The position numbers were made by a program, and so were the translations under genes. A DNA stretch of 33,089 nt, taken from assembly GCA_016196755.1 (NCBI GenBank), contig JACPXC010000065.1, forward strand, positions 1-33,089, in the 5' to 3' direction. The notes beneath the pieces are model-generated. The model was not told where the DNA came from. It ran no database searches and was given only the letters and a program-made list of their open reading frames with translations. This stretch comes from Elusimicrobiota bacterium. GTDB lineage: Bacteria > Elusimicrobiota > Elusimicrobia > UBA1565. Below, piece by piece: positions 1,006 through 19,722 of this stretch; position 1 is the first letter of the stretch; each line of letters starts with the position of its first letter.

Positions 1006-3333
1006 TTACGCCTTGAGCAGGGCGGACTTGAAGGCGCGGGCGTCGGAGAGGCGGGTCTCGGGGTCGGGGTCGAGGGCGCGGACGAGGAGCTCGTCTAAAG
1101 CCGGCGAGACGCCGGGGACGGTGCCCGTCAGGGGCTTGAAGAGCGCCCGCTCGGCGGCCCAGCCGTCCGGGCCGAAGGGCAGCTCTCCGCTCAGGAGCTC
1201 GTAGAGGCAGACCCCCAGGCTGAAGACGTCGAAGGCCGGGCCGACGACGCCGCGCTCGGCGTCGGGCGGCCGGTAGCCGGGTGTCCCGGCGATGGTGCGG
1301 GTGCGGGTCAGCGCGATGGGGTTGGGGGTGGGCGTGGCGGCCGGGACGGCGCTGGCCGCGACAGCCCCCGAGGCGCGGGCCACGCCGAAGTCCATGAGCT
1401 TCACGTGGGCGTCGGCGCTGACCATGACGTTGCCGGGCTTGAGGTCCCGGTGCACGACGCCGTGTTCGTGGGCGAAGGCCAGCGCCTCGCAGACCGGGGC
1501 CAGCACGGCGCGCGCGGCGTCCAAGGGGACGGTGCGCTTCTCGGCGAGGACATGGGCCAGGGTCTTCCCGGAGACCCACTCGAAGACCAGATAGAGCTGG
1601 GGCTTGAGGTCTAGGATCTCGAAGATCTCCACGATGTTCGGGTGGTGCAGGGTGGCGATGGTCCGGGCTTCCTTGATATAGAGCTCGCGCAGGGCCGGGT
1701 CGCCGGCCAACTCCGGGGCCATCTCCTTGAGCGCCACCTGCCGCCGCAGGCTGACGTCCATCCCTTCCCAGACGATGCCCATCCCGCCGCGGCCGGCGAC
1801 CCGCTTGAGGCGGTATCTGCCGGCCAGGAGTCCGTCGCTCTCGACGGGCTGGAGCCGGGCGGCGGCGACGGGAGCCGGCCCCGCCGCGGGCTTCGGTGCG
1901 GCGGCGGCGCTGTTGCGGCGCCAGCGCTGGACGGCCGGGACCAGGGCCCGCGCTGCGGCCGCCGAGGCGGCCAGCGCGAGGAAGACGGCGCCTAGCAGCG
2001 TCAAGGGGTTGGCGCGCTTGACGGGCGGGGCCGAGAGGCCGGACAGGAGGTTCTCGTTGTCCGACGCGGAAGGGTCGAAGAGCCGGATGCCGGCCTTGGC
2101 GCGGGCTAAGTGGTTCGCGAAGCGCGGGTCGAGGGCCGCGGCGCGCTGGAGGTCGGCCAGCATGCGCTCGCGGTCGTTCTTGAGCTCGTAGGCGAAGGCC
2201 CGCATCAGATAGCCCTCGGGGTTGTCCGGCTCGAGGATGACCATCTGGGTGGCGCTGGCTTCCGCCGCGTCGGCCTTGCCGTTATGCAGTTGGGCCCAGG
2301 TCAGTTCCCTGTAGCCCTTGAAATTTCCGCGGTCGAGCTGGACCGCGCGCTGGGCGGCCGACTCCGCGTCGCCGTAGCGTCCCAGCTTGTTGAGGGCCGC
2401 GGCCTTCATCGTCCAGGCCTTCGCATTGCGCGGGTCCTCTTTGAGGGCGGCCTCCGCGGCGCGCAGGGCGCCGCGCGGGTCTCCGTCGGAGAGGCTGTCG
2501 CCCGCTGCCGAGAGCAAGCGTCGGCCCGCCGCCCCGCGCATGTCGCCGGTCTGGCCCCCGGAGAGCAGGATGGCCTTGTCGGAGCGCAGGCCGTCGACGG
2601 TTCCCGCAGGGCGGCCGTAGCCGATGTTCGCGGCCGCGCTCGGACCGCCGCTTCCTGCTCCGGGGCTGCCGGCCTGGGCCGTCCAGCTCTCCGGCTCCTC
2701 GGCGGGAGCGAGGTCGCCCCCGCGGGTCAAGGAAGAATCGAGGGTCTGGGCGACCAGGTCGTCGCCGAGCTTGCTCAGGCCCTGACTTTTGGCGGCCATC
2801 TCTCCGAGCCCCATCTTGCCCGACTGGAGCGCCTTCTGGATGCTCTGCGCCTCCTGCTGGGCCTGCTCGGGGGTGGCGGCGTGGGCCTCGTGGGCGTTGG
2901 CGGCGGCCGAGTAGTGGATCTGGTCCTTTACCGTCGCGTACTGCTGTTCGTTGTAATAGCCCCCGGTGGTCCTGAGGTAGTCGTTCTCGGCGTCGACGTA
3001 GGCCTTCCCGGTGTCGACGAAGGCGCCTTCGGCCATCATGGCCTGCGTGCGGGCGTCCTTGTAATACGCGCTGGCTTTCTCGGCCTTGTGCTCGGCCTCG
3101 TTGAACCAGTCCCAGCCGCTCGGGTTCTGGGCGCGGCGGGCGGCGTCGAGGGCCCACTGCTTGGCCTTCTCCTTGCGCTCGGCGGCCTCGTCCGCCTTCC
3201 TGCGCGCGTCGTGCATCGCTCGCTCGGCGGCCCGCACCTTCGCCGCGGCCTTCTGGTCGGCCTCGCTCATCGCTCCGCGGCCGGGCGCGGGAAGGCACAG
3301 CCCAAGGAGGGCGAGCAAGGCCAGATGCCGCAT
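1006..3333 (-). CDS. Membrane Ser/Thr protein kinase with extracytoplasmic coiled-coil/TPR region
   Basis: Predicted signal peptide at 1-21, then an Ala/Lys/Glu-rich helical region to about 195. TPR-like repeats follow at about 272-415 (KAWTMKAAALNKLGRYGDAE), then one membrane segment at 443-466 and a Hanks-type kinase at about 506-775. All kinase landmarks are present: glycine loop GRGGMG 514-519, Lys536 in VALKE, Glu555, HRD at 628-630 with Asn635, DFG 648-650, and PPDAE 689-693 in the APE position. The activation segment has a Thr/Pro-rich insertion (about 655-680), plausible for autophosphorylation. The kinase is at the C-terminus, the reverse of PknB-type receptors. If the signal peptide is cleaved, the TPR part faces the periplasm and the kinase the cytoplasm. 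A promoter lies exactly 6 bases before the ATG. Substrates are unknown. Confidence 0.9.
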   Translation of the reverse strand: MRHLALLALLGLCLPAPGRGAMSEADQKAAAKVRAAERAMHDARRKADEAAERKEKAKQWALDAARRAQNPSGWDWFNEAEHKAEKASAYYKDARTQAMMAEGAFVDTGKAYVDAENDYLRTTGGYYNEQQYATVKDQIHYSAAANAHEAHAATPEQAQQEAQSIQKALQSGKMGLGEMAAKSQGLSKLGDDLVAQTLDSSLTRGGDLAPAEEPESWTAQAGSPGAGSGGPSAAANIGYGRPAGTVDGLRSDKAILLSGGQTGDMRGAAGRRLLSAAGDSLSDGDPRGALRAAEAALKEDPRNAKAWTMKAAALNKLGRYGDAESAAQRAVQLDRGNFKGYRELTWAQLHNGKADAAEASATQMVILEPDNPEGYLMRAFAYELKNDRERMLADLQRAAALDPRFANHLARAKAGIRLFDPSASDNENLLSGLSAPPVKRANPLTLLGAVFLALAASAAAARALVPAVQRWRRNSAAAAPKPAAGPAPVAAARLQPVESDGLLAGRYRLKRVAGRGGMGIVWEGMDVSLRRQVALKEMAPELAGDPALRELYIKEARTIATLHHPNIVEIFEILDLKPQLYLVFEWVSGKTLAHVLAEKRTVPLDAARAVLAPVCEALAFAHEHGVVHRDLKPGNVMVSADAHVKLMDFGVARASGAVAASAVPAATPTPNPIALTRTRTIAGTPGYRPPDAERGVVGPAFDVFSLGVCLYELLSGELPFGPDGWAAERALFKPLTGTVPGVSPALDELLVRALDPDPETRLSDARAFKSALLKA

Positions 3334-8609: not shown

Positions 8610-11600
8610 CTAGATCGCCGGCGGCAGGTGCGGCCCGCGGCCGCGGTTGCCGGGCCGGTTGTGCATGAAGTCGTTCCAGTCCTGGTGCATGCCGCCGCTC
8701 GAGGAGCTCGAGCCGGGGGTGTAGAGTTCAGGCAGGTCCCCCGGCGCGGGGGCGTCGGGACGCGGCTCGACGTCGGGCTCCAGGCCGCGGCCGCCCAAGC
8801 GCTGCTGCTCCAGGGCGATCGCGTAGAGCGCCGCCGCCGCGATCATGGGGTCCTGGGAGGTCAGCATCTTCTGGATCTTCGAGAGCCCAGGGGTGCCGTC
8901 GGCGTTGGGCTCCGAACGGGTCATCCCGGCGAAGAGGCCGTTTCGGACCACGACCTTGGCCCAGGTCACGGGCAGCTCGAAGAAGGGCTGTTCGTAGTTC
9001 GCGTTGAGGTTGCCGGGGTTCTGCCTCATCGCGGTCTCGAGGGCGTCGAGCAGCTCCGGTCCGCCCACCTTCTGGGCGGTGTACAGATACGCCAACAGGA
9101 CCGGCCACTTGTCGTCGTAGGACGTGAACGAGTGCTTCTCCAGGTACTTCTCGAGCTGGCGCTGCAGGTTCCCCGAGAGGTTGAGGCGCGCGGCGATCCG
9201 CGAGTAGGCCTCGGCGGCGTGGTAGTGGGTCACGCGGTCGTCGTTGAGGGTGCCGTTGAGCACTTCCTTGAGGATGGCCAGGTCGCGCTCCGGCCGGCCG
9301 TAGCCGCGGCCGACGAGCTTGAGGATCAGGATCTTCTGCTTCGCGTCCCACTTCTTGAACGGGGCATTGGAGTACTTGCCGCTGCCGTCGGGCTGGGGCG
9401 GCCAGTGGGCCTCGAAGAAGCCCTCCAGGCGGGCGGGCTCGACGCGCTCGAGGAGCTCGATGAGGGAGTCGGGGTTGACTTCCTTGAACTCGGCGTCGGC
9501 CATCGTCGGCAGGTCCTCGAGGACGCCGACCTTGCCGAGCGCCAGCTGGGCGGCTTCCTTGACCTGTTTCTGGGTGTAGTCGCCGGCGGCGGCCTCGTCG
9601 TAGACCGCGCGGGCGCGCTCGCGCCCGGCGCGCGCCAGGACGGAGCCCACGGCGTCGATGAGGGCCATCTTGGCCGGGATATGGGCGTGGGTCGAGGATG
9701 TGTACTTCTTCAGGATGCGGACCAGTATCTCGGCGTCGGCGGCCGTGCCGTAGCGCTTGAATAGGAGCGCGGCCGCCATCAAGAGCGGCCAGGTGTCGGT
9801 CAGGCGGCTCTCGGTGGCGTCGCGGTCGGCCCAGCCCTTCTCGACGATCCAGCGCCGTGCGGCGGCCAGGTCGCCCTTGCCGGCCAAGGCGGCCCAGCCC
9901 GAGGCGGCGGCCACCTTCATGTTCGGGCCGGAGTCGGCGGTGGAGAGCAGGGTCTTGAGGAAGAGCTCCTTGGTCTTGGCGCGCTCGCGCTCCTGGTGCG
10001 GCGTCAGCGGGCGTTCGGCGTCGGCGGCGGCGACGACTGGAAGGGACCCCCTCGGCGCCGCGGCGGCGCCGGAGAGGGGGAGCTCGATCCAATAGTCGGT
10101 CCCCTGGGCGCCGGTCGAATAGCCGAAGCGCGCCCCGGGGATGGCGGTGAGCTTCCGGTAGAGGTCGAGCAGGTTGTGGTCGCGCAGGATGGCGGCCGTC
10201 ATGTTGACGGCGTCGGCCGCCTGCTGGGCGGCCTTGAGGTCCTTGGGCGGGTTGCCCGTGAAGTGGAGCCGCATGGCCTCCGCTTCGCCCTCGCTCATCG
10301 CATGGGCGGAGTGGACCCTGACCCGGACGGCCGAGGCGGTCGTCTCGTAGGAGACGCTGACGGGCTCGGCCGCGCCGGCCTTCTCGGCCTCGGTCTTGGC
10401 GTGGCGGGTGAAGTGCTTCACCCAGCCTTCGCCGGGCTGGCCGGCCTCGGGCTGGAGGACGTCGAGCACCGCGGGGACGGCCCCGGCGGCTTTGGCGCGG
10501 GCCTGGAGGTCCTCGCCGGCGCCGCGCAGGGCCTTGTCTTTCTTGGCGGCCGTGTTGTGCTCGCCCTTGACGGTCGTGCCCGCCGTCCCCGGGTAGGACG
10601 TCTGGGGGTTGAACACCGGCGCGGCCGCGGGGGCGGCGGCCGGCGCGGCCCGGCCGGTGACCTGGCGCAGGAGGGCGTCGAACGTCGACTCAGTGGGCTC
10701 CGGCGCCGGCGCGTCGCCGATGCGCGCGGCGGCCTGGGCCTCGACTAGGGTCATGACCTCGCGGGTCAGGGCTTCGGCGGTTCCCTCGAGGGTCCGCTTC
10801 TCGACGACCTTCTCGGGGCGGTCCAGGGACTCGAACTTGGTCGTGCCGTTCTCCACCGAGACCTTTATGCGCCGGCCGCGGGCCGTGCCGCCCTGCTGGG
10901 CCATCTCGAGGACCCACTTGGCCAGCGGGTCGACGATGAACTTCTCGATGGCGCCCTGCATCGGCCGCGCTCCGTAGAGCGGGGAGAAGCCGTGCTCGAC
11001 GAGCAGGTCCATGACCGCGTCGTCGACCTCGATGTCGGTGTCCTGGCGCTCGCGCATGAGTTCGATGAACTCCTTGATCTGGAGCTTGGCGATCAAGCCG
11101 ATGTTCTCGCGCTTGAGGCGGTTGAAGATGACCCACTTCTGCTTCGAGTCGGGGTCCTCGTCGAGGCGGTTGATGAACTCCGGGCGGAAGCGCGACATCA
11201 CGCCTTCCTGGATGGCCAGGGCGATCTCGGCGTCCCAGGCCTTCTCGATCTCTTCGACGTCCTTGGCCAACTGGGCGCGGCGGGCGTCGATGTCCCCGTT
11301 GATTCCGTAGCGGGCCTGGATCTCGCCGCGCTTGGACTCTACGGCCTTGGCCTGCTCGGCGGCGGCGGCCTTTAGGGCCCGGTCAGCCTCGGCGCGCAGG
11401 CCCTGGAGCTTGTTGGCGACAGCCGAGATCTGCGCGAGGTCCGTGAGGTCCTCGGCCTTGCTCTCAAGGGCGGCGATCGCCTTATCATTCCTGGAGCGCA
11501 GCTCATCGAGGGCGAGCTCCTGGCTCTTGCGCAGCGAGGCCAGACCCTTCTCGACGGCCGCCGCCACCGCGGCGGGGTCTTGGGCGGTGTCCAGCCGCTT

Positions 11601-14600
11601 GATCTGCTCCCACTTCTCCTGGAGCATGCGCTCGTACTTCTGGGAGTCGACCGCGCCCATGCCGACGTTGGAGGTCATGATGATGACGGTGTTCTTGAAG
11701 TCCACCGTGCGGCCTTCGGAGTCGGTCAGGCGGCCGTCGTCGAGGATCTGCAGGAAGACGTCCCAGACCTTCGGGTGGGCCTTCTCGACCTCATCGAACA
11801 GGATGACGGTGTAGGGGCGCTTGCGCACCGCCTCGGTGAGCTGGCCGCCCGCGCCGTAGCCGACGTAGCTCGGCGGGGCGCCGACGAGGCGCATGTAGGT
11901 GTGCTCCTCCATGAACTCGGACATGTCGAAGCGCACGTAGGCCTCGGGGTCCTTGAAGAGGAAGCGGGCCAGCTCCTTTACCAGGTGGGTCTTGCCGGTG
12001 CCGGTGGGGCCGACGAAGAGGAACTTGCCCATCGGCTTGTGAGGGTTTGAGAGGCCGGACTTGTTGCGGCGGATGGCGTTGGCCAGGGCGCGGATGGCGC
12101 GGCCCTGGTTGACGACCTTCTTCTCGACCTCGGCCTCCATGTTCACGTAGCGGGAGGCGTCCTCCTCGCCGAGGGTGAGCTGGCCGGCGGAGATGCCGGT
12201 CTTCTCGGCCAGGACCTTCTTGATGAGGTCGACGTCGATCTGGCCGCGGCCGTCCTTGACCTCGGCCTGCGCCGCGTAGCCGTTGGCGATGGCGTCGACC
12301 AGCACGGCGATCTTGTTGTAGGCCTCCATCGGCAGGGCGATCGCCGAGGCGATGCCCTTCTTGGCCAGCTCCTTGGCGGCGGCCGTCACGGCCACGCCGA
12401 GCTGGCGCCAGCCTTCGCGCAGCTCGAGCGCCAGGGCGGCCCGCAGGTTGTCGGGGCGGGCCAGCTCGGCGGTCTGCTCGACGAGCTTGACCGACTTGCG
12501 CGGGTTGTGGGTCTCCTTGTCGAACTGGTCGGAGAGCTTGGCCGCGGCGTCGAGCGCCTCGTCGGAGATGTCCGCCTCGTGCTTCCACTCGTAGTACGAC
12601 TTGGCGCCGTGGAGCATCTGCTGCGTCTCCTCCACGGTCGGCTCGTCGATGTCGATCTTCTCGAAGCGCGACTTGAGGGCGTCGTCGGAGTCGAAGTACT
12701 CCTTCCACTCCTTCTCGGTGGTCGTGCCGGCCACGGAGATGACGCCGTCGCGGATCGGCCCCTTGAGGGCGTTCATGATCTTCACGCCCTGGGGGTCCAT
12801 CCGCAGCTTCTGGGTCTCGTCCATGAGCAGGATGACGCGGTTGCCCTTGCGGGAGTCGGCGTCGTTGAGCTGCGGCAGGAGGTCGAGGAGGGAGAGCAGG
12901 ACCTTGATCGGCTCGTCCTCGGCCAGCAGGCGGTCGATGTCGAGGTTGACGAACCAGCGGCCGCGCAGGCGGCGGATGTCGAGCCAGGCCGAGCCGTCGG
13001 AACCCTCGAGCTTCCCGGAGTCCTGGTTGACCGAGTCCTCGATGAGCTGGGCCAGGCCCTCGAACACGGCGGTCTTGCCGGTGCCGGCCGGGCCGACGAG
13101 CATGACGCTGTTGATCATGCCGCGCGGGGCGGTGAGGATCGGGATGACCCGCTTGGTCTCCTTGACGCGGCCGATGACCGGGTGGCGCTTCTGGCCGGCG
13201 GGGGGGACGACCGGCTTGAGGAAAGTCGAGATCAGCCCGACCGCCTTGGGGTTGAGCGTGCTCTTGCCGTCGATGAGCACCTGGGTCTGCAGGAAGTTGA
13301 GCCAAGCGGCTTGAGCGTCGCGCCGGCGGGCCTCCAGCTGGGCGGGGGTCTCGGCGGGAGCGTCGGCGGCGGCGGGAGCCTCCGCGGCGGGCCGCTCGGC
13401 CAGCGGCCGCAGCGAGGAGACCGGGGCCTCGGCGGTGACGGCCGAGGCGGCCGCGTCGATCGACCAGGCGGGGTCATCCGACTCGGCGGCCTCGAAGAGG
13501 TGCAGGCCCGTCATGCCGCGGTAGTCGGCCTCGACGAGCTTCAAGCGCAGGCCCTCGGCCCAGGCCTTGACCGCGTCGAGCCCGGCGCCCTCGCGGGCCT
13601 GGAGCAGGACGCCGCGGGCCTCGTCGGCCCCGGCCTGCTCGCTGTGCGTGGCGTCGTTGGCGATGCTGTGGTCGAAGGCGTCGGGGTCGTTGCCGCGGTA
13701 CTCCTCGAGCGCCTGCATCCCGGCGGGGCTGAGCTTCATCGTCGCCAGGTGCTCGTTGCCTTGCACGGCCGAGGCCAGGGCCGCGCCGTAGCGCATCTCG
13801 CGCAGGACGAGGGTGATCGCGCCGGCCTCGATCTTGTAGCGCAGCGCGCGGCTGCGGACGTGCATGTCGACGAATTCCTTGACCGCGGAGGGCTTGGTCC
13901 CCTCCTTGAGCTCGAGGCGCACCGTCTTGCGCTCGGTCATGGCCGGGTCTTCCTGCGCCTTAGACGGCAGCGGGGCGGCGAACTGGGCGCGCACCTCGCG
14001 GGACGCCCGCGGATGGACCTTGATCATCATCACGTCGGGCTGGCGCGAGGCCTCGACGGCCTTGGCCGCGGCGGCGGAGGCGTCCGCGGCGTTGACCGTG
14101 ATGTTGTAGGGCCGGGAGAAGCCGATCGTACCGCCCAGCGCGGCGGCGATCTCAGCCACCTTCTCATCGGAGGCCAGGGAGGTGACGATCACCTCGATCT
14201 TCCCGGCCTCGTCCCAGTCCGCCTCGGAGCTGATCTTTTCGAAGGCGGGGGGCGGCTGCTGGGCGGCGGCCTCGGTGGCGTCCACGGCCGCAGACAGGTC
14301 CAGCCGGCCGACGACCTCGGGGTGAACCGAGATCGAGGTCACCGCGGGATCGGTATTGGCCTCGCGGATGATGCGCTCGGCCTGGGCCCAGTCGTTGGCG
14401 ACGACCTTGAGCCGGTAGCCGTTGATCCATTCGTAGGACTGGACCAGGTTGTCGGCGCCGTTGTAGATGTTGTGGCGCGCCATGAACGCCTGCTGGTCGG
14501 CGAGCGTGGGATTATCCTGCGGGGTACCGACGTTGATCCAGAACTCGAGCTCCGAGGACATCGTGCCGTTCTGGGTCCACTTCGCCGTCGGGGCGGCGGG

Positions 14601-17417
14601 GGCGGCGGCGACGGCCTTGCCGATGTTGAGGACCCGGGCGGTGGTCGGCTCGACGACGACCTTCGTGACGGTCTCGGAGGCGGCGGCGGCGAGGGCGAAG
14701 CGCGCCGCCGTGACGGCGTCGGGGGCGTTGACGACGGCCGTGACGTAGGTGGTCATGCCGTGCATCCTGAGCTTCGTCTCGACGGCCGCGGCGGGGGCGG
14801 CGGCCGCCAGGGCCTCGCGGACCTGGGCTTCGCTCTGGCCGGAGGCGAAGTCCGCGTAGAAGTTCACGCCCTCGGAGCCGACCGGGGCCGGGAGGTTGGC
14901 CGAGACGAGCTTGGCGCGCGCCGCGGGGGCGGCGGCCTCGACGACCTCGGCGGCCGTCAGGAAGTAGGCGGTGGGGTGGACGTCGACCCGCTCGACCTCG
15001 GAGCGTCGCGCCAGGACCATGACCTTGCGCCTGGCGTCCTCGGCGTCCGCGACGGGGACCGAGGCGCGGAACTCGGGCGGCGCCATGCCGCGGCTGTGCG
15101 CGGTGACCTCGCCGCCCATGGCGGCGGCGATCGTGTCGGCCTGCTCGCGGCTGGTCGCGTCGGCGAACGTGACCGAGATACGGCCGGCGTCCGCCGAGCT
15201 GTCGGAGCGGACCTTGGCCCGCGCCGCGTCCTCCGCGGCGTCGGAGGCGGCGGAGTCCCCGACCGTGCCGAGCATAGCCCCCAGGCCCAGGGCCGCGGCC
15301 AGCGAGATCATGATCTCGGGCGCGGCCCCCATGAGCTCGAAGCCCGGGATGCCGGCGGCCAGCGCGAGCAGGCCCAGCGGGGCGAACGCCGCCATCCCCG
15401 AGCCGCCGGCGCCGCGGGCGCGCTTCTCGTCGGCCTCCTTCATGGAGTCCTTGAGCTTCTTCTTGGCGTGCGGGCTGTGCATCTTCTCGAAGACCTTGTG
15501 GTCGGCGAGCCACTTCTGGAGCCGCGCCATGTAGTTCTCGTTGCGCGGGTCGGCCAGGATCTCGCGGATCTTCTCCTCGGAGTCCTGCGTGAAGACCTTC
15601 TCCTTGAGGAACTTGACGGCCATGTCCGGGTAGACGCGCATGAACTCGGCGATCTTCTCCTCGTCGGAGAGGGCCTGGAACTCCTCCTTGGCCATCAGGT
15701 CCTCGAGGAGCTGGTCGACGGCGTTCTTCATCGCGTGCTCGGCCTCGTAGGACGAGACCTCGCTCTCGGCGTCGTGGTCCTCGGCGATCTGCACCAGGGC
15801 CGCGCCCCATTGGCTCATGAGGTCCATCATCTCCTCGACGGCCTCCTCGGAGCGGACCTTCTCGCGGATGCACCAGTAGTCGTAGGAGCAGGGCAGGGCG
15901 AGGAAGAGCAGGGGGAACTGCATCGTCGTGAAGACCAGCGCGTAGAACGCGCCCAGGGCGGCCAGGGTGGCCACGCGGGTTATGGTGTTGACCTGGTCGA
16001 GCGACTTGATGTTGAAGCGCGAGAGCAGATAGGCCGGGCCCTCGTAGATGCGCCGGAAGATCCCCTGGTACCCCTCGGGGAGGTTGGGGTTGGCCGTCCA
16101 GCGCGCGTAGGCGCTCTTCGAGAACATCGCTACCAGCAGCTTGCCGCCGTCGAGCCAGGGCAGGGGCAGGAGGTTGAAGAGGGTCAGCGCCAGGTTCATC
16201 TTCCAGAGAGTCGAGAGGATGAGCGCCCCGGTGCCGGCCGCCGACATGAGCCCCAGGGCCGGCAGGGCCCAGAGCGCGCCGAAGGCCAGCCCGGCTAGGC
16301 CCAAGTTCATCAGCGGCCCCAGCGCCGCCACCTTGGCCGCGTCGTGCTGGACGTCCTTGAGATTGTTGAAGTCGACCGGGACGGGCTTGGCCCAGCCGAA
16401 GAGGACCGGGAAGCCCAGGACGGCCTGCGAGACCGCCAGGCTGACGGCGGGAAGCAGGAGCGTGCCGAAGACGTCGATGTGCGCGAAGGGGTTTATGTCG
16501 TCGCGCCCGGCCTCTTTAGGAGAGGGGTCGCCCCAGATGCGCAGGCCGAGGATGTGGGCCGACTCGTGGGCCAGGATCGAGAACATCAGCGCGCCGGAGA
16601 TGACGGCGGCCGGGATCAGGCTGGCCTGGAAGATCAGGGCGGTGGCGCCGAGGATGGCGATCGGCGCGCCGTAGCGGACCAGCGGCTTGTTCCAGATCGA
16701 GTCCGGGACGCCTTCTTCCTTGTGAGCGCCGGGGGTGGGGACGCCGCAGGAGCCGCCCGCGCATTCGTTGACGGCCGAGATCGCGGCGGCGGGCTTGAGG
16801 CTGTTGATGACGCGGCCGGCGCGGCCCTGGACGGCCGTGGCGCCTTCCGGGGACGCTTTGCGGGAGTTCGCGTCGAAGACGGCGTTGAGCGAGGCGGCGG
16901 CGCGTTCGCCCTGGGGAGCGGCGCCGGGGCGGTTGGCGAGGATGCGCGAGACGAGGTTCCTGAGGCCGCGGCTGGAGGCGGCCGGCCGGGGCGCGGGAGT
17001 CTCGGCCGCGATCGCGGCGGCGGGGCGGGAAGTCGGCGCGGCGGCATGAGGGGCGGCCGACCGAGCGCCATCGCGAGGATGCGCCGCCTCCGAGGCTATG
17101 GGAGCGGCCTGGGGGGCGATGGCGGAGGCGGCGGCTGCACGGGCGGCGGGGCTGACGGTCGGGATGGCGGAGGGCAGGCTCAGGGAGGGAGTGCCGAGGG
17201 AGGCGGCGGGGCTCGAGAGCGGGGAGGCCGAAGGGACGGCGACGCTCTGGGGGGCCACGACGTTGACTCCGGCGGAACGGCCCGAGGCGGCGGCCCCGGA
17301 GACCATCTGGGCGTAGGCCCTGGTGGCCAGCGGGCCCGGCGCCGTCACGAGCAGGGCGGCGGCCGTAATGGTCGCCGCTGCCGACGTGAAAGCACTGCGT
17401 TCGGAGCGATTAATCAT
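8610..17417 (-). CDS. Giant M50 site-2 protease / I9-like repeats / double Clp AAA+ fusion protein
   Basis: One uninterrupted frame of 2,935 residues from the ATG at 17417, chosen for its GGGAGA site 4 bases upstream. Domains in order: signal peptide 1-37; Ala/Pro/Ser-rich region to about 150; M50 metalloprotease about 245-515 with HESAH 284-288, [15 protein letters not shown] 309-323, GWAKPVPV and [11 protein letters not shown] 415-425 (third ligand Asp423); charged helices 513-670; two hydrophobic segments 676-719; five or six repeats at 745-1310, each about 70 residues and ending like VDVHP/SVHP/KVHP, similar to subtilase propeptide I9 domains; Clp D1 (GPAGTGKT 1442-1449, Asp1533-Glu1534, Arg1584); Clp D2 (GPTGTGKT 1803-1810, pore loop [11 protein letters not shown], Asp1875-Glu1876, [17 protein letters not shown] sensor 2); a coiled-coil insertion 1920-2070; helical repeats about 2470-2880; Ser/Gly/Pro tail. 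It presumably unfolds envelope or membrane substrates and may cleave them in cis. The topology of the AAA+ part is unresolved. Confidence 0.9.
17059..17101 (+). repeat. 43-bp interspersed repeat, copy A (inside giant gene)
   Basis: Matches 28761-28803 (inside ileS) at 39 of 43 positions in the same orientation. Here it is read antisense, as residues of the low-complexity N-terminal region of the giant protein. Confidence 0.75.
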
Positions 17418-17436
17418 AGCGTCTCCCTTGATCGAT

Positions 17437-17458
17437 GACATTGACCGGAATCAATGTC
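17437..17458 (-). promoter_or_regulatory. Perfect 8-bp inverted repeat in leader of giant gene
   Basis: GACATTGA (17437-17444), a 6-base gap, then TCAATGTC (17451-17458). It lies between the predicted transcription start (about 17463) and the Shine-Dalgarno site (17422-17427). It could be a repressor operator or an RNA hairpin. It does not match the CIRCE heat-shock operator. Confidence 0.5.
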
Positions 17459-17469
17459 CCCTAGGCCTA

Positions 17470-17513
17470 TTTATAGGGAAAACCAGGGAATTCAGAGAGG
17501 AGCCTAGGGCCCA
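17470..17513 (-). promoter_or_regulatory. Promoter of giant gene with 17-bp upstream operator candidate
   Basis: On the minus strand TATAAA (17475-17470) is a good -10. At the -35 position there is no TTGACA-like box but the 17-base sequence GAGGAGCCTAGGGCCCA (plus-strand reading, 17497-17513). It is repeated exactly at 31028-31044 in front of another secreted-protein gene at nearly the same distance from its -10 (21 versus 20 bases). An activator site replacing the -35 is the simplest reading. Confidence 0.5.
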
Positions 17514-18615: not shown

Positions 18616-19722
18616 ATGGCGGAAAAGAGCATCCTGATCATCGATGACGACCAGACCTTGGTGGCCGCCATCAAGGAAGGCTTGGAGACCCTGGGCTTCC
18701 GGGTGGCGGCCGCGTTCGACGGCCTGCAGGGCGTCCTGCAGGCCCATCAGGGCAGACCCGATGCCGTGATGCTCGACTTCAACATGCCGGCGGGCGGCGG
18801 GGCGGGCGTCTACGAGCGCCTGCGCTCTTCCTCGGTGACGGCCCAGACCCCGATCATCTTCCTGACCGGGGCGACGGTCGACGAGGTCAAGAAGGTCATC
18901 CGCTCGACCCCCAACACCTATTTCCTCAAGAAGCCGATCTCGGTCAGCCAGTTGCGCAAGGTGCTCGATAAGATCCTGGGCGGGGGGGGCGGGCCGCTGT
19001 CGTCGAAGTCCCGCCCGGTGACGCTCGGCCTGCCGGCGGCCCCGCCCGCGGGCGCCGATTTCGCCGGCCTGGGCGGCGGCCTGCCGCCGCTCCCCAAGCA
19101 GCCCGGGGCGACGCCGCTGCCCGGCGTGCTGCCGACGCCGAAGCCGATCACCAACTCGACGCCTCTGCCGGCCCTGATCCCGGGACAGCCCTCGGCCTTC
19201 GTCTCCGCCCCGCCGCCGGCCGCCGGTCCGGCCCCGTTCTCCCCTCAGCCGCTGCCGGCCCCGTCGCCGCCGTCGGCGGCGCCGGCCGCCGCGGGGTTCG
19301 AGGGTTCGGTGCACCGCCTCGAGCTGCGCGTGCCCTACGCCGACACCGACCGGTTGGGCATCGTCTACTACGCGAATTTCCTGCGCTACTTCGAGCTGGG
19401 GCGCACCGAGTTCATACGCATGCTCGGCGTGCGCTACCGCGACCTCGAGCTGGAGCGGCGGATCTTCCTGCCGGCCGTCGAGTGCCGCGCGCAGTACCTG
19501 GCGCCCTGCCGCTACGACGACCTGCTGCGCGTGCGCACCTGGCTGTCCTGGCTGGGGCCGGCCAGCGTCTGCTTCCAGAACGAGGTCCTCAACGCCGACG
19601 AGGGTGGCCGGCTGGTGGCGCGCGGCTTCACGCGCCACGCGGTGCTCGACGGGAACTGGAAGCCGGCTCGGCTGCCGCCGGACATAAAAAAACGGCTTGC
19701 GGCCTACCTGAAGCCGGACTGA
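18616..19722 (+). CDS. Response regulator receiver domain fused to hotdog thioesterase
   Basis: A 368-residue cytoplasmic protein. Residues 4-122 are a CheY-like receiver with acidic pocket Asp10-Asp12, phospho-acceptor Asp54 (MLDFNMP), Thr84 and Lys106-Pro107, all intact. Residues 123-230 are a Pro/Ala/Gly-rich linker with no predicted fold. Residues 231-365 are a YbgC-type 4HBT hotdog domain with VPYADTDRLGIVYYANFLRYFE, where Asp245 matches the catalytic Asp of E. coli YbgC. Receiver domains usually drive DNA binding or cyclic-di-GMP enzymes; control of an acyl-CoA thioesterase would couple a two-component signal to lipid metabolism. No histidine kinase is adjacent, so the partner lies elsewhere. 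The stop codon directly abuts the convergent AI-2E gene. Confidence 0.92.
   Translation: MAEKSILIIDDDQTLVAAIKEGLETLGFRVAAAFDGLQGVLQAHQGRPDAVMLDFNMPAGGGAGVYERLRSSSVTAQTPIIFLTGATVDEVKKVIRSTPNTYFLKKPISVSQLRKVLDKILGGGGGPLSSKSRPVTLGLPAAPPAGADFAGLGGGLPPLPKQPGATPLPGVLPTPKPITNSTPLPALIPGQPSAFVSAPPPAAGPAPFSPQPLPAPSPPSAAPAAAGFEGSVHRLELRVPYADTDRLGIVYYANFLRYFELGRTEFIRMLGVRYRDLELERRIFLPAVECRAQYLAPCRYDDLLRVRTWLSWLGPASVCFQNEVLNADEGGRLVARGFTRHAVLDGNWKPARLPPDIKKRLAAYLKPD

Follow-up and report, generated by a model that had tools for sequence, protein, structure and literature searches.

A conserved single-chain fusion of a site-2 protease with a two-ring Hsp100 motor in Elusimicrobiota

Bacterial ATP-driven membrane proteolysis is described as the work of FtsH, a single chain with a membrane anchor, an AAA+ motor and an M41 zinc protease, plus relays of separate enzymes. 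A gene on a 33,089-nucleotide contig of an Elusimicrobiota bacterium (JACPXC010000065.1 of assembly GCA_016196755.1; this whole stretch is the window below) raises the question of whether a site-2 protease (S2P) and a Clp/Hsp100 unfoldase are joined in one chain and, if so, what such a chain does. An earlier note on this DNA had proposed an S2P-Clp fusion; we find that the fusion is genuine, ancient and conserved, and that selection has maintained both of its active sites.

The whole fusion open reading frame occupies 8610..17441 on the minus strand (2,943 codons), the strand on which all features of the chain given below lie. The frame of 2,935 codons recorded in the earlier note exists, with its strand now assigned as minus, and a plus-strand reading of 8610-17417 was rejected because stops interrupt it. 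The first in-frame ATG overlaps a palindrome at 17437..17458, which makes the second, M9 at 17417 (giving a protein of 2,935 aa), the probable start. Third-position GC is 0.89-0.99 along the entire frame, and therefore the fusion is a single continuous coding frame.

The chain begins with a Sec-type signal peptide (residues 9-45; 17307..17417) ending in an AYA/Q cleavage-like site, and every complete N-terminus among the fusion members is likewise a predicted Sec-type signal peptide with an AxA site, called from mechanical sequence features rather than by a trained predictor. A fast-evolving low-complexity region rich in Ala, Pro and Ser (residues 46-250; 16692..17306; dN/dS 0.73) leads to the M50 S2P domain (residues 251-520; 15882..16691), which is COG1994-like by motif reading. 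The residues of its zinc site are all present: the HESAH zinc-ligand and catalytic motif (residues 292-296; 16554..16568), as had been read before, and an LDGG motif that supplies the third zinc ligand, Asp (residues 430-433; 16143..16154), with H, E and H of the former and D of the latter invariant in 20 of 20 sequences. An invariant CxxxxxC pair (residues 518 and 524; 15870..15890) lies at the end of transmembrane helix 6 (TM6). Peptidase_M50 was matched by Pfam at 1.2e-4 in the whole protein and at 2.7e-6, just above the family cut-off, for the piece alone, and an M50 match was obtained in 18 of 18 members. The domain resembles the site-2 proteases RseP, SpoIVFB and COG1994-type M50 in its HExxH and LDG zinc site and in its GPxxN, NPxxHID and KPVPV segments. 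Behind it come a conserved soluble helical segment (residues 525-680; 15402..15869) and a hydrophobic hairpin (residues 683-728; 15258..15395) whose conservation is not universal among members. In the S2P groups listed by a 2023 review, extra domains are PDZ or CBS or absent (PMC10202637); unlike the fusion, no group is described as carrying AAA+ modules.

Between protease and motor lie five ferredoxin-like domains (residues ~754-1346; 13404..15182), weakly similar to the fervidolysin prodomain, to which 4 of 18 members have weak Pfam matches. AlphaFold modelled this array with pLDDT mostly 80-95. A Foldseek search with the model of the M50 part and linker returned RRM arrays, which represent a generic ferredoxin-like fold, and no S2P among the top 50 matches; the M50 part of the model is only moderately confident, and therefore the model does not settle topology.

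The motor consists of a D1 AAA+ module (residues 1418-1665; 12447..13190; Walker A 13071-13094), a D2 AAA+ large domain (residues 1739-1945; 11607..12227; Walker A 11988-12011), an insert where a ClpP-docking loop would be (11187..11606) and a ClpB D2-small domain assigned by Pfam (residues 2109-2181; 10899..11117). The Pfam search that the earlier note had suggested as a check gave, besides the M50 match, AAA_2 at 4.8e-57, ClpB_D2-small at 9.9e-16 and AAA_lid_9 at 6.6e-9, and the best full-length model was ClpB. Walker A and B, sensor and arginine motifs of both rings are conserved across 16 sequences, with the D2 P-loop altered (GPTGVSKT) in one further genome, G024 (locus L030). The claim of two full AAA+ modules thus stands for the Walker A/B and arginine motifs of both rings and fails for the pore loop of D1, where the KYRG type is missing, as it is in all 24 fusion frames, several of them partial frames without D1. 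D2 has a GYVGY-type pore loop, which reads GAPPSYVGY in the window protein (SYVG) and GDVG in one relative. The insert, which separates sensor 1 from the arginine finger of D2 at the place where ClpA, ClpC and ClpX carry the ClpP-docking loop, has no [ILMVY]G[FLM] docking motif in any of 18 members; this stretch measures 157 aa in the window protein and 44-156 aa in relatives, and we rejected its length as a special feature because the insert is long solely in the window's genus. The ClpB disaggregase has a long coiled-coil M-domain in D1 and a Clp_N domain; the D1-D2 connector is short in A2, and among the best 25 of 40 matches neither Clp_N nor M41 appeared. The protease is N-terminal and the AAA+ modules are two, while FtsH has one AAA+ module followed by a C-terminal M41 peptidase.

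In common with ClpB, ClpC and ClpA (Hsp100 class I), the fusion has D1 and D2 AAA+ modules and a D2-small domain. The Clp parts of the fusions nevertheless form one clade (support 100/100) apart from the ClpB and ClpC of the same genome and from E. coli ClpA and ClpB, and differ from these in lacking the D1 pore loop and the ClpP-docking loop and in being joined to M50, GHKL-like and HEAT domains. The GHKL or histidine-kinase CA-like domain (residues ~2277-2455; 10077..10613), found by Foldseek to have a RetS-like fold (probability 0.99 over ~98 columns, E only 0.09), is probably degenerate. It is followed by a HEAT-like helical solenoid (residues ~2481-2883; 8793..10001), recognised by fold search and by HEAT_2, for which sequence matches were obtained in 4 of 16 members (best 4.9e-5). 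Because the E-values of the tail in the PDB fold search are weak (best 0.002), both names are suggestive, fold-level readings. The earlier note named the S2P and Clp parts; it recorded neither the signal peptide nor the array of ferredoxin-like domains, nor the HEAT and GHKL-like tail, nor a depletion of cysteine discussed below.

The fusion is present in relatives, so that the refuting condition named in the earlier note, its absence from all related genomes, does not hold. Some match to the M50 part was found in 40 of 57 related genomes, the strong matches lying in frames of 848-3,365 aa, and at least 15 Elusimicrobiota genomes besides this one share the domain order. HExxH and both P-loops share one frame in G002, G011, G015, G016, G017, G020, G023, G025, G032, G034, G035, G036, G037 and G052, and also in G050, whose contig is cut at both ends; the contigs of G001, G003 and G056 stop before a complete Clp part. 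With the distant relative G230 (5,022-codon frame), the members span at least four families of the class. Across 341 genomes of the phylum, a profile search reached E <= 1e-40 in 27; of these, the three with the poorest scores have short stand-alone S2Ps of ~215 aa and not fusions. A scan over genomes of 84,980 species gave 22 loci, all in Elusimicrobiota or in MAG contigs equal in length to Elusimicrobiota contigs of the set analysed, and no fusion in another phylum; being based on two short motifs, the scan could have overlooked distant fusions in other groups. The distance from protease site to first P-loop varies among members from ~480 to 1,740 aa. Very large proteins have been noted in Elusimicrobiota (PMC11573180). 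Besides M50, Clp and HEAT-like parts, the frame of G230 (locus L083, contig C27) holds what read as a HExxH segment further upstream and, at the C-terminus, a part resembling M14 carboxypeptidases; in a divergent M50-Clp frame (L191, G008:C68) the D1 P-loop is degenerate and the C-terminus reads as a formylglycine-enzyme-like domain.

Compared with a congener, dN/dS was 0.23 for M50, 0.17 for the segment after M50, 0.19 for D2, 0.41 for D1 and 0.57-0.73 for the linkers, rough values obtained by the Nei-Gojobori method from one sequence pair; purifying selection acts on both catalytic parts. The genome also has separate ClpB, ClpC (with an SLGF docking motif), ClpP and RseP-like genes, and therefore the fusion is an additional machine.

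We consider the best explanation, with a probability of about 0.45, to be a phylum-specific S2P-Hsp100 chain of single origin that cuts membrane substrates and then extracts or unfolds them. The domain make-up, the intact catalytic motifs, the conservation of the fusion, its single clade and the purifying selection are observed; the order of events is proposed. In this scheme the M50 domain would anchor the chain in the inner membrane, its zinc site lying close to the cytosolic face; a flexible spacer or a substrate-binding arm would be provided by the ferredoxin-like array, and the Clp part would form hexamers on the cytosolic side, D1 serving mostly ring assembly and D2 pulling. The M50 site would cleave membrane-spanning substrates, D2 would pull on and unfold the released or trapped part, and the unfolded part would leave via D2 for other proteases, while the HEAT and GHKL-like tails could act in substrate selection or regulation. 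Hsp100 rings take substrate in at D1 and release it at D2. Since substrate enters at D1 and M50 lies on this entry side, cutting followed by extraction is favoured over FtsH-like feeding of the protease. The variable distance between protease and first P-loop suggests loose coupling of protease and motor and counts against our best explanation, and we found no direct sign of substrates common to the two.

The proposal places the motor in the cytosol. Six transmembrane helices are predicted in the M50 domain, the first (252-271) weak, and the K/R-rich loops (means 2.8, 3.4, 8.4 and 3.0) are all on the zinc-site and C-terminal side, the opposite loops having no K/R. By the positive-inside rule the C-terminal domains would thus be cytosolic, where ATP is, so that the loop charges support an S2P oriented as usual, with the Clp part in the cytosol. 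A signal peptide followed by six helices would, however, place the C-terminus outside unless helix 252-271 does not span the membrane; signal peptide and loop charges agree only in that case. In keeping with a first helix that does not span, the HExxH helix comes first in the stand-alone S2P that this genome also encodes.

The cysteine content points the other way. After TM6 and the CxxxxxC pair, the fusion chains hold 5 Cys in 36,898 aa, a ~65-fold depletion, compared with 249 in 27,114 aa (0.918%) for neighbouring frames without a signal peptide; signal-peptide-like neighbours hold 12 in 5,253 aa. In the homologous D1-D2 stretch, the fusions have 1 Cys in 11,011 aa and the canonical ClpB and ClpC of the same genomes 33 in 11,447 aa, a difference whose binomial figure of 5e-13 is overstated because it treats related sequences as independent. 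In this respect the part beyond TM6 resembles proteins from outside the cytoplasm. The main rival to our explanation is export of the Clp module: the signal peptide would be cleaved, all six M50 helices would span the membrane in inverted orientation, and the rings would lie in the periplasm or another oxidising compartment that contains ATP. The AxA sites at all complete N-termini are in keeping with export, as are the DsbA-like matches in the same genome; VKOR, considered as an oxidant, is absent from most relatives. Against it, we know of no ATP pool in the bacterial periplasm, known S2Ps act at the cytosolic face, and the positive-inside rule indicates the reverse orientation. Hsp100-related AAA+ proteins that leave the cytosol via a signal peptide do exist, namely Plasmodium Hsp101 and the torsins, a likeness relevant only if export occurs; unlike the fusion, they are eukaryotic and reside in compartments with ATP.

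A second family bears on the same point. Another leader-bearing gene of this genome, used as the query, identified ClpC-like proteins with a signal peptide (loci L117-L125, L192, L193 and L103, at the end of G000:C52) that are nearly Cys-free after the leader, some without an obvious transmembrane segment before the AAA domains, which favours export. Of eight members, six have a KYRG-type loop and seven keep the [IM]GF docking loop, which argues for cytosolic ClpP contact and against export; a leader-bearing ClpP as partner was rejected, since the ClpP frames that we inspected read without a signal peptide. On balance, we judge export of the fusion's motor to be unlikely, if a serious contender, and it is somewhat more doubtful that Clp motors with a signal peptide and almost no Cys (M50-Clp and ClpC-like, some with other membrane-protease-like domains) make up an entire class in Elusimicrobiota that works outside the cytosol or in an oxidising, ATP-containing compartment. 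Were export true, these would be the first bacterial extracytoplasmic Hsp100 machines, and the signal peptide and missing cysteines raise the question of where an Hsp100 motor can work. The C-terminal membrane parts of the second family are Rce1-like (G003, just below cut-off), signal-peptidase-II-like (G015) or missing, and such other fused membrane domains suggest that the pairing is a theme in the phylum. In two genomes, second-family genes adjoin signal-peptide M48 and M50-subtilase genes; at L120 and L121 these form a same-strand row of leader-bearing genes (Clp family, M48, in one case also MFS, and M50-subtilase fusion). Cys-free single-chain fusions of signal peptide, M50 and subtilase (S8) were seen at L056 (G000:C49), L059, L060 and L120:2415-5657.

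It is also conceivable, with still less likelihood, that the chain is made as a polyprotein and later cut, yielding a soluble Clp-like chaperone and, acting apart from it, a membrane protease. The linkers do evolve fast, and related giant chains hold several proteases, for example the frame of 5,022 codons that holds M50, Clp and what reads as a carboxypeptidase-like part; yet the order is kept over class-level divergence, a separate-gene form was not found, and the ferredoxin-like array is folded, unlike a bare processing linker. We give even less credence to an FtsH-like processive protease, in which the rings would feed unfolded chains into the M50 site. Conservation of both active sites within one chain fits such a machine. 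Against it stand the position of M50 on the entry side of the rings, the lack of a pore loop in D1 and the long, very variable linker, and S2P sites are membrane-embedded and cleave transmembrane segments rather than loose chains. The earlier suggestion of a self-contained ATP-driven protease is weakened by the first two of these points and by the lack of a ClpP-docking loop. An assembly or frame artefact, finally, has next to no chance: the gene of G044, a single-contig genome, is split over three overlapping frames, which may reflect sequencing errors, whereas one unbroken frame in many independent assemblies, the recurrence of the order, the uniform third-position GC and selection on both catalytic parts rule out a chance or assembly join.

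Under our preferred explanation of cutting followed by extraction, one chain would unite the RseP step with the unfolding step of ClpXP. The proposed order, intramembrane cut and then Clp unfolding, is that of the RseP-then-ClpXP relay on RseA, which uses two separate proteins plus ClpP where the fusion uses one chain. With FtsH the fusion shares a single chain, a membrane anchor, an AAA+ motor and a zinc protease; it differs in having an M50 intramembrane protease ahead of a two-ring Hsp100 motor, on its entry side. That it was built independently of FtsH, as had been proposed, agrees with an Hsp100-type Clp part and a protease of M50 rather than M41 type, and with a conserved chain of this kind, bacteria would have a second route, independent of the first, by which intramembrane cutting is coupled to mechanical unfolding. 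The view that no such fusion had been described holds for the openly accessible papers that we searched for S2P/AAA+ fusions or an Elusimicrobia site-2 protease.

At the promoter lies the palindrome GACATTGATTCCGGTCAATGTC (17437..17458), which is FNR-box-like (TTGAYNNNNRTCAA), and a -10-like box, TATAAAT, is found at 17469-17475. Palindromes of the form TTGA-N6-TCAA occur at the 5′ end of 12 of 18 fusion loci, often directly before a TATAAT-like box. The narrower pattern TTGAYNNNNRTCAA, chosen after the sequences had been viewed, occurs 10 times in the genome versus 4 times for the reversed control pattern, one of the other copies lying at a signal-peptide Clp gene. We take the palindrome as a lead to a candidate regulatory site. 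In eight loci, all from one genus, the next gene upstream encodes an HspR-like (heat-shock repressor) MerR regulator (E 1e-17, below the curated cut-off; for example L030:14239-14598 and L042:3146-3511), which speaks for our preferred explanation. Matches to the HspR HAIR operator upstream of the fusion reached at best 8-10 of 14 bases, none outstanding. No operon partner is conserved across families, synteny being local, within genus or family; this counts against the preferred explanation. Elsewhere in the window, one frame (18616-19719) combines a response regulator receiver with a 4HBT thioesterase domain, and another (1006-3333) encodes a TPR protein with a C-terminal Ser/Thr kinase domain.
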